Made by a program: the position numbers and the translations under genes
Part shown: piece after piece, positions 14,726 to 17,856 of the stretch
Numbering within the stretch: the first letter of the stretch is position 1
How the letters are laid out: every line of letters begins with the position of its first letter
Assembly (NCBI GenBank): GCA_028689025.1
Contig: JAQTXA010000002.1
Coordinates: 124,001 to 188,000, forward strand
Direction of reading: 5' to 3'
DNA: 64,000 nucleotides
DNA from: Aliarcobacter sp.
GTDB taxonomy: Bacteria > Campylobacterota > Campylobacteria > Campylobacterales > Arcobacteraceae
Notes under the pieces: generated by a model
What the model was told of the DNA's origin: nothing
What the model saw: the letters and a program-made list of their open reading frames with translations, nothing else
Database searches by the model: none

Positions 14726-14807
14726 TAAATTAGTTTTTTGTATTTTTTGTTTAACTGTTAATTAACTAAAAAAAGATAAAATACTTGAGTTCGCATAGGA
14801 GTTTATT

Positions 14808-15065
14808 ATTACTACTTTATCAAAAAGATTTATTTTCTTTATTACTCTTCTTATTTTTACCTTTATTTTTTTTGTTTTTTTTCATGCAAAATTAAATAAT
14901 AGAGTTAACTATTCCACAAAAATAAGTTCTATTACAAAACTTCCAAATTTAAGTTATTCAAATAATATTTATGAGCCAAGAATTTATGAGTACAAAGATT
15001 TTTCGAATACTCTTTTTCCTATGAATATACAAATCAATTATAGGAATTTTGTTTATGAAAAATAG
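14808..15065 (+). CDS. 85-residue single-span protein with apparent ATT start
   Basis: An open frame runs from just after an in-frame TAG (14796-14798) to TAG at 15063-15065. It has no ATG, GTG or TTG near its 5' end. A perfect AGGAG (14797-14801) sits six bases before the ATT at 14808, so ATT is the best start. The product has a hydrophobic span (about 8-26), a short basic linker and a roughly 55-residue outer part rich in Asn, Tyr and Ser. It overlaps the permease gene by 11 bases. I do not recognise the family; the position suggests a small subunit or accessory of the ABC transporter. Confidence 0.6.
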   Translation: MTTLSKRFIFFITLLIFTFIFFVFFHAKLNNRVNYSTKISSITKLPNLSYSNNIYEPRIYEYKDFSNTLFPMNIQINYRNFVYEK

Positions 15066-16227
15066 TGTATTTTTTAATTTCTTGTTTCTTTTACTACTAA
15101 AACACAAATCAAAACATATTGCTATTTTTATTATCTCAATTTTAATTGTTTTTTTGATTTCTAGTGTTTTATTTATTTCTAATAGTTTAAAAAAAGAAGT
15201 TTTTTTTACTTTAGAAAATCAAAGTGATTTTATAATTCAAAAAATAAATAGCGGGAAGATTTTAGATATTCAAACTTCATGGATTGATGATTTCTCTTCA
15301 ATAAATGGAGTTACAAATACTCAAGCTAGAGTTTATGGTTTATACTATTTTATGTCAGAAAATGTATATTTTACAATTATTGGAATTGATTTATTTGAAG
15401 AAAACACAAATCTAAAAGAACTTCTAAAAACTCTAAATATCTCTGATTTTTTACAAAATGATTCTATGATTATTGGAAATGGAATTAAAAAAATATTTGA
15501 TAAATATCACTATTTTGATTCTTATGATTTTAAACTTTTTAACAATGAAACTACAAATGTGAAAATATTTAAAGATTTACCAAAAGAGTCAAATTTAGTA
15601 GCAAATGATTTGATAATTATGGATATAAACCTTGCAAAAAAGATTTTAAATATAAAAGAAGATGAAGCAAGTGATATTATTTTAAATGTTCCAAATAATT
15701 TAGAGAGACAAAATATTAAAGAACAACTTATTTTAAAACACTCAAATATTAGAATCTTACAAAAAGAGAATCTGAAAAAAGAGTATGAAAACATGTTCAA
15801 CTATAAAGGTGGAATTTTTTTAGTTCTGTTTATAGTTGTTATATTTACTTTCATTTTGATTTTATATCAAAGATATTCAATGATTAGCTCAAGTGATAAA
15901 AAAGAGATTGGTATTTTAAAAGCTGTTGGTTGGAGTATAAAAGATATTATAAAACTAAAAATTATTGAGAACTTTATTGTGGGATTTATGGCTTTTATTA
16001 TTGGAGTTATAATTTCATATATTTTTGTATTTATTTTAAATGCTCCAATATTAAAAAACATTTTTATTGGATTTTCAAATATTCAAAATGATTTTGTTTT
16101 AAATCCAAGTGTTGATTTTACAACTCTTGTAACACTATTTTTATTTTTTATAATTCCTTTTTTAAGTGCTGTTTTAATTCCTGTTTGGAAGATTTCTGTA
16201 ATTGATGCAAATGAGAGTATGAAATGA
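15055..16227 (+). CDS. ABC transporter permease, FtsX/MacB type
   Basis: A 390-residue permease. One span near the N-terminus (about 20-42) is followed by a roughly 200-residue extracytoplasmic domain and three C-terminal spans (about 250-271, 300-325, 355-378). The segment IGILKAVGWSIKDIIKLKIIEN between spans is the FtsX-type coupling region. I start it at the ATG at 15055, eight bases after AGGAA. Such proteins more often act as mechanotransmitters or lipoprotein/peptide exporters than as importers. It overlaps the ATPase gene by four bases. Confidence 0.85.
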   Translation: MKNSVFFNFLFLLLLKHKSKHIAIFIISILIVFLISSVLFISNSLKKEVFFTLENQSDFIIQKINSGKILDIQTSWIDDFSSINGVTNTQARVYGLYYFMSENVYFTIIGIDLFEENTNLKELLKTLNISDFLQNDSMIIGNGIKKIFDKYHYFDSYDFKLFNNETTNVKIFKDLPKESNLVANDLIIMDINLAKKILNIKEDEASDIILNVPNNLERQNIKEQLILKHSNIRILQKENLKKEYENMFNYKGGIFLVLFIVVIFTFILILYQRYSMISSSDKKEIGILKAVGWSIKDIIKLKIIENFIVGFMAFIIGVIISYIFVFILNAPILKNIFIGFSNIQNDFVLNPSVDFTTLVTLFLFFIIPFLSAVLIPVWKISVIDANESMK

Positions 16228-16895
16228 TAAAAATCACAAATCTAAATAAAATATTTAATGAAAATACAAAAAGAGAATTTCACGCTTTAAAAAATATCAA
16301 CTTAGAAATAAAAAACTCATCTTGTGTTATTTTAAAAGGGATAAGTGGAAGTGGAAAATCTACGCTTTTATCAATTATAGGAACTTTATCAAAACCAACA
16401 AGTGGAAGTATTCAAGTTGAAAATGAAAACATTGCAAAACTTCCAGATTTGCATGCTTCAAATTTTAGAGCAAAGAAACTTGGTTTTATTTTCCAATCAT
16501 ATAATCTGTTTGATACATTAAGTGTAAAAGATAATGTCTCTATTGCTTTAATTCCTTTAGGATTTAATCAAACCAAAATTGATGAAATGGTTTTAAAGGC
16601 TCTCTCTTTAGCAAATATAAAACACAAAAAAGATGAGTTAGTTTATAATCTTTCAGGTGGTGAGAAACAAAGATGTGCAATTGCTAGAGCAATTGTTAAT
16701 AATCCAGAGATTATCCTTTGTGATGAACCTACTGCTAATTTAGATTATGATAACTCTCTTATTTTTATTGAAAGTTTAAGAACTCTAAAAAATCTGAATA
16801 AAACGATAATTGTGGCAACCCACGACCCAATATTTGATAATCTTGATTTTGTAGATAACGTAATAAATATTAAAAATGGAAAAATTTGTGAGTGA
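16224..16895 (+). CDS. ABC transporter ATP-binding protein, LolD/MacB type
   Basis: A 223-residue ATPase with Walker A GISGSGKST (39-47), Q-loop Gln91, signature LSGGEKQR (143-150), Walker B IILCDEP (163-169) and switch His in ATHD. The sequence class is that of LolD/MacB/FtsE partners of FtsX-type permeases, which agrees with the gene before it. It overlaps the permease by 4 bases and the next gene by 20, so the cassette is translated as a unit. Confidence 0.92.
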   Translation: MIKITNLNKIFNENTKREFHALKNINLEIKNSSCVILKGISGSGKSTLLSIIGTLSKPTSGSIQVENENIAKLPDLHASNFRAKKLGFIFQSYNLFDTLSVKDNVSIALIPLGFNQTKIDEMVLKALSLANIKHKKDELVYNLSGGEKQRCAIARAIVNNPEIILCDEPTANLDYDNSLIFIESLRTLKNLNKTIIVATHDPIFDNLDFVDNVINIKNGKICE

Positions 16896-17856
16896 AATAC
16901 TTTTATCAAATGAGATAATAATCTATTTATTTACACAAACTATTTTATTTATTCTTCTTTTTATAGCTTTTTATTTCTCTATTTTTATAATCAAAAAATG
17001 GAATTATGAAAAAACAACATCAGCACAATATAAACTTGAGAAAACCTCATATTTAGTAATACTTATAATATTTTTTACTTTAGTTGTAAAAATATTTTTG
17101 ATGCCCTATTTTGCTTATAGTTTAGATAGTTTGTCTCATATAATTCCAGGTGCTATGTGTGCAGCTGGTGTTGTAAAAGCAAATAATTATGGAGAAATAT
17201 TACTGGCTTTAAAACTTATTATTCTATTTTGTATTGGAGTTTGGTTAATAATTAATAGTTTAGATTTAAAAGAAAAAACATATCCATATACAAAAAAGAA
17301 ATTTATTTTTTATATTTTTATATTTTCTTTGATTTTAATTGAAACAACTCTTGATATATTATATCTGTCAAATATCTCAACAAAAGAGCCCGTAATGTGT
17401 TGTTCTGTGATTTTTGGAGCTAATTCGATTGGGAGTAAAATTCCTTTTGATTTATCAATTCCAATGCTTGTAGGACTATTTTATTTACTTTATTTATTAA
17501 CAATTTTCACAAATATTCAAAAACAAAAAACATTAAATTTTATTGTAAATATATTTTTCCTATATATCTCTTATTATGCAGTTACTTATTTCTTTTCAAC
17601 TTATATATATGAACTTCCAACCCATCAATGTCCATTTTGTATGCTTCAAAAAGAGTACAATTTTATAGGATATTTTATTTGGTCAACACTATTTTTGGGA
17701 ACTTTTTTTGCAATTGCAAGTTTTATAGTACCTAAGTTTATAAATAAAAATTTAGATTATAGTTTTAAATATTCGATTTTATTTAATTCAATTTTTGTAT
17801 TTTTATGTTCTTTTTATCTACTTAGATATTATTTTGTAAATGGAGTTTTTTTATAA
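16876..17856 (+). CDS. Polytopic membrane protein with three cysteine motifs, unrecognised
   Basis: A 326-residue protein with about eight membrane spans. Cysteines sit in three places: PGAMCAAG (Cys95), EPVMCCS (Cys175/176) and HQCPFCMLQ (Cys252/255). The last recalls the CxxC of DsbB/VKOR-type membrane oxidoreductases, but length and span count do not match those families, so this is only a hint. It overlaps the ATPase gene by 20 bases and must belong to the same system. A thiol-redox, metal or heme function is inferred. Confidence 0.55.
   Translation: MEKFVSEILLSNEIIIYLFTQTILFILLFIAFYFSIFIIKKWNYEKTTSAQYKLEKTSYLVILIIFFTLVVKIFLMPYFAYSLDSLSHIIPGAMCAAGVVKANNYGEILLALKLIILFCIGVWLIINSLDLKEKTYPYTKKKFIFYIFIFSLILIETTLDILYLSNISTKEPVMCCSVIFGANSIGSKIPFDLSIPMLVGLFYLLYLLTIFTNIQKQKTLNFIVNIFFLYISYYAVTYFFSTYIYELPTHQCPFCMLQKEYNFIGYFIWSTLFLGTFFAIASFIVPKFINKNLDYSFKYSILFNSIFVFLCSFYLLRYYFVNGVFL

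Follow-up and report, generated by a model that had tools for sequence, protein, structure and literature searches.

In the Aliarcobacter DNA analysed here, a single stretch of 64,000 nucleotides referred to as the window, a small gene at the head of an apparent ABC transporter operon seems to be translated from a near-cognate AUU codon. We consider it likely, at a probability of roughly 0.8, that this gene encodes a real membrane protein with a single span, that the weakness of its start is under selection, and that the weak start most likely limits synthesis of both the small protein and the permease encoded next to it. The features concerned are the following.

14755..14785, + strand: likely promoter, comprising the -10 element TAAAAT (14777-14782) and its flanks; TANAAT is kept in the 34-species clade described below
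14797..14801, + strand: Shine-Dalgarno sequence AGGAG, 6 nt upstream of the start codon, read directly
14808..14810, + strand: start codon ATT (among the 34 species, ATT in 21, ATC in 13, any other in 0)
14808..15065, + strand: gene for the small membrane protein, 85 codons, one N-terminal membrane helix, without a Pfam or NCBIfam family
15055..16227, + strand: FtsX-type ABC permease (PF02687, E 6.6e-13), with an 11-nt overlap with the small gene
16224..16895, + strand: LolD/FtsE-type ABC transporter ATPase (PF00005, E 1.4e-33; NCBIfam models below their cut-offs)
16876..17856, + strand: polytopic membrane protein with invariant C95, C175, C176 and CPFC at 252-255, of no known family

The small gene would be the first cistron of four, followed by those for the FtsX-type permease, the LolD-type ATPase and the Cys-rich membrane protein, and initiator tRNA would begin translation at the near-cognate AUU at 14808. 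Direct reading of positions 14796-15065 reproduced the original prediction exactly, in that an 85-codon frame is preceded by AGGAG six bases before ATT. The in-frame stop codon that had been placed just upstream is TAG at 14796-14798, which overlaps the AGGAG at 14797-14801 and is followed by TTTATT and then by the ATT at 14808; the frame itself closes with TAG at 15063-15065. The first and only ATG, GTG or TTG in frame is an ATG at codon 72, in agreement with the claim that none occurs until near the end, and the permease ATG at 15055 gives the reported overlap of 11 bases. The membrane span was likewise recovered, as one predicted N-terminal helix (residues 3-30), to which AlphaFold2 assigns a block pLDDT of 76-95, with the remainder of the protein modelled at low confidence. 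Two ATT triplets stand in tandem, at 14805 and 14808, of which the second, with its 6-nt spacing, is the one conserved in relatives; initiation at 14805, with a spacing of 3, was rejected, since that triplet is not conserved. Searches of Pfam, NCBIfam, PDB sequences and a fold search returned nothing convincing for the small protein, and a literature search found no report of the gene.

Judged by its letters alone, the site does not clearly exceed what chance would give. When the window was scanned mechanically for Shine-Dalgarno sequences with near-cognate frames, three sites emerged: this one and two others, each antisense to a real gene (one to pgk, the other to an htrA-like gene). It is because the site is conserved in relatives that it becomes significant. 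While such frames do arise by chance within the window, the same start context recurs in many assemblies made independently of one another, of which several consist of a single contig, and the idea that a sequencing error, a pseudogene or a chance open frame underlies the site has a practically negligible probability.

Comparison of the homologous sequences establishes that the gene is real, that it starts at this position, and that its start codon is both conserved and non-canonical. Homologues of the small frame (E < 0.001, translated frame) precede the FtsX-type permease gene in 25 of the 31 genomes of the genus, a set identical to the 25 genomes in which this permease occurs, which bears out the earlier view of a genuine gene. 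Across a clade of 34 species (GTDB-coded genera g1, g16 and g19, including Aliarcobacter/Arcobacter and Poseidonibacter, with members such as Arcobacter caeni, Aliarcobacter cryaerophilus LMG 9065 and Poseidonibacter lekithochrous), the frame opens with ATT in 21 species and with ATC in 13, and never with ATG, GTG, TTG or ATA. The proposal that ATT is the true start thus withstood the comparison of 5' ends: replacement by ATG was found in 0 of the 34, and the close homologues contain neither a frame-breaking indel nor an upstream ATG. Every one of the 34 combines the non-canonical codon with a strong, AGGAG-type Shine-Dalgarno sequence 5-6 nt before it, and all share the 11-nt overlap with the permease gene and a -10-like TANAAT 23-27 nt upstream of the start codon. 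The alignment of the small protein is free of frame breaks, and the early codons 2-6 vary synonymously, with Ser5 written as TCA, TCT, TCG, AGC or AGT and Leu4 as TTA or CTA. In one draft genome (G071, locus L087), three in-frame stops interrupt the permease frame that follows the small gene, and this is perhaps a decayed or misassembled copy.

A usable canonical start is absent from these genes. In three species (G092, G096 and G099), ATC follows immediately on a TAA; in three others (G007, G008 and G018), TAG is found one codon ahead of ATT; and two (G090 and G094) offer no ATG, GTG or TTG at any point of the open frame. The abutting stops also speak against the reading in which the codon is an internal Ile or Thr, reached by ribosomes from an upstream open reading frame through frameshifting or stop-codon readthrough, a reading for which the invariance of Ile1 in the genus-level protein alignment might be cited. 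No upstream open reading frame through the start site is conserved at the 34 loci, and the spacer of 5 or 6 nt means that the frame relation between the Shine-Dalgarno sequence and the codon varies. Furthermore, if transcription begins, as we infer, 6-8 nt downstream of the -10 element, the leader would be roughly 18 nt long and therefore too short for an upstream open reading frame. In the window, the leader RNA at the start folds no better than its shuffles, and initiation at AUU may be enabled by the strong Shine-Dalgarno sequence on this short, weakly structured leader.

Codon usage at the start position is similarly unlike that of internal codons. The permease genes of these 34 species encode Ile as ATT 1248 times, as ATA 716 times and as ATC 171 times, such that ATA makes up 34% and ATC 8%, as against 0% and 38% at the start position; moreover, the permease has 11 columns that are Ile throughout, and ATA is present in every one of them. 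The absence of ATA and the 38% of ATC at the start imply that its third base is confined to T or C, away from A and G. An ordinary internal codon, whether Ile in the 34 species or Thr in genus g58 (see below), was ruled out by these statistics, and entry from an upstream frame is very improbable.

Searches at order level brought up the small gene in three further families, f6, f7 and f20. In f7, the four species of genus g42 start with ATC (three) or ATT (one), again with much the same Shine-Dalgarno spacing, and in genus g58 the codon lying about 6 nt from the Shine-Dalgarno sequence is ACG in 6 of 6 species, with a variable codon before it (GTT, GCA, ACT, GAG, AAA or AAG). ACG accounts for 13 of the 121 Thr codons (11%) in the six g58 permeases, none of whose eight conserved Thr columns is all-ACG, and the g58 genes range from 28 to 54% GC with protein identities of 63-80%. 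Since ACG is rare, never fixed in a column, and found across such varied GC contents, it is evidently retained in g58 for its role as the start. For the four species of g20 and g13, ATA is the codon that agrees with the Shine-Dalgarno spacing; the three g20 cases are tentative, the start having been assigned from that spacing alone, with a badly spaced TTG as the alternative in G103. The small genes of f6 start with ATG, or in one case TTG. The orthologues from genus g15 (L102-L109) have an ATG start and no Shine-Dalgarno sequence, and are the sole canonical members inside the near-cognate clade. With the exception of that one lineage, the non-standard start has not been exchanged for a normal one in more than 40 related species.

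In the second of two trees, built from 101 permeases after four long-branch ones had been left out, the distribution of near-cognate and canonical rows needs only two changes. A single clade holds every near-cognate row, together with five g15 ATG rows, and the branch that joins the near-cognate genes of both families has a support of only 81. On the first tree, the third base switches between T and C at least 5-6 times. If the weakness of the start were unselected, an old ATG would have drifted to a near-cognate codon that was tolerated thanks to the strong Shine-Dalgarno sequence, which is indeed present in every ATT, ATC and ACG member, and the small gene may need little product. Yet the third base, for all its switching, never becomes G or A in the 34 species, ACG is held in 6 of 6 species while other Thr codons vary, and the single ATG subgroup is without a Shine-Dalgarno sequence. 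We therefore regard relaxed drift as unlikely and favor selection that would hold the start weak, with the codon moving among AUU, AUC, ACG and probably AUA, and reaching AUG only in the one lineage whose gene lacks a Shine-Dalgarno sequence.

The strength of pairing with the anti-Shine-Dalgarno sequence is in keeping with this. Duplex medians are about -7.5 kcal/mol for ATT and ATC genes and -7.6 kcal/mol for ACG genes, and the g15 ATG genes lie between -0.1 and +3.0 kcal/mol. The pattern suggests that the conserved quantity may be the total strength of initiation rather than the codon, in a trade-off that is not strict, as several ATG homologues, in f6 and in the paralogous group, combine their start with a Shine-Dalgarno sequence of moderate or good strength. 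The permease, for its part, has a weak one, with a median of -3.1 kcal/mol versus -7.5 kcal/mol for the small gene.

The original prediction went further and proposed that a weak start could set the level of the whole cassette. The 11-nt overlap and the weak permease Shine-Dalgarno sequence fit this idea, which we put forward conditionally: output would be low, and the weak start would most likely limit the small protein and, via the overlap, the permease. The same overlap, found in 34 of 34 species, and the same weak permease site could be expected of a regulatory leader that serves, when translated, only to open or couple the permease start, its peptide being dispensable. However, residues of the small protein are conserved across genera and families, including at positions well before the overlap, and a dispensable peptide is accordingly quite improbable. 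For a functional protein with a selected weak start, the comparison suggests that evolution keeps translation of the operon weak. It is possible, though we lean somewhat against it, that this selected trait amounts to an operon-wide throttle read by IF3 and kept through two families despite drift among AUU, AUC, AUA and ACG, the lineage that regained AUG having dropped its Shine-Dalgarno sequence.

The FtsX-like permease and the LolD/FtsE-type ATPase are encoded side by side, and both PF02687 and PF00005 are matched above cut-off. Membership in LolCDE was not borne out, the scores being 24 bits of 362 for TIGR02212 and 179 of 308 for TIGR02211. For the Cys-rich membrane protein, Pfam, NCBIfam, PDB and a fold search gave nothing convincing, and absence from the fold list does not equate to a new fold; the protein family, with its MC, CC and CPFC motifs, is conserved across Campylobacterales despite the lack of a family match. 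NosL is present in 25 of the 25 genus genomes with the operon versus 1 of the 6 without it (hypergeometric P ~4e-5, with genomes counted as independent of kinship), and at an outgroup locus NosL (PF05573) lies directly upstream. This linkage and co-occurrence therefore make it likely that the operon acts alongside NosL in copper or cuproenzyme maturation. Two further observations concern NosL. In the window's own genome, a protein with two NosL domains (L274:8230-9327, - strand) is encoded among genes unrelated to nitrous oxide reduction, and in genus g15 the protein after the operon (L105:199-705, - strand) is NosL-like by eye and has no Pfam NosL match.

The parallel originally drawn with infC, whose ATT start is controlled by IF3 proofreading, did not extend to these genomes. 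The infC gene starts with TTG in all readable Arcobacteraceae and f7 genomes (L032, L145-L173, L249-L269); the classical AUU autoregulation is thus absent from them, and infC was rejected as a second AUU gene. In several of these genomes, a stop codon closely precedes the TTG. By analogy with other systems, gating of the small-gene start by IF3 is plausible.

To our knowledge, no more than a handful of bacterial genes retain a start codon outside the canonical set, and annotation programs limited to ATG, GTG and TTG miss or truncate such genes. Here, one orthologous gene provides a natural series of starts, comprising AUU, AUC, probably AUA, and ACG, plus an AUG member, which lets one ask whether weak initiation is selected, how it is traded off against the Shine-Dalgarno sequence, and whether IF3 gates a NosL-tied operon.

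Among the known examples, infC starts with AUU in E. coli, AUC in Streptomyces and AUA in S. aureus (PMC5472188, PMC13009471). The small gene resembles it in having a near-cognate AUN start held by selection; however, the codon serves IF3 autoregulation in infC, whereas here it is found in a transporter operon. In S. aureus, cvfC1, ccpN and infC are all reported to pair strong Shine-Dalgarno sequences with conserved weak starts (PMC13009471). The AUU start of cvfC1 was mapped by Ribo-Ret and yields about 10% of the AUG output, and comparable S. aureus starts yield about 10% of AUG in poor medium (PMC13009471). Like the gene described here, cvfC1 encodes a small protein (61 aa) at the head of an operon, with a strong Shine-Dalgarno sequence and an AUU start conserved throughout the genus. 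The present gene is a different one in another operon, with a start predicted from sequence, and in the two families its codon has shifted between AUU, AUC and ACG. Streptomyces sigR similarly keeps a non-canonical start in 34 species (32 GTC, 2 GTT), with a conserved strong ribosome binding site and the first place in its operon (PMC5472188), but it encodes a sigma factor, its codons are GTC and GTT, and the repression of its GTC start by IF3 was shown by experiment; discrimination by IF3 has been demonstrated for both sigR and infC (PMC5472188). In E. coli pcnB, according to the account of Binns and Masters 2002 given in PMC13009471, an AUU start limits translation of a gene other than infC, although pcnB is unrelated and is not an operon-leading gene for a small membrane protein. 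The small gene thus appears, from its sequence conservation, to belong to the known kind represented by infC, pcnB, sigR and cvfC1, and to be an unusually deep and widespread instance of it, with a codon turnover that includes ACG.
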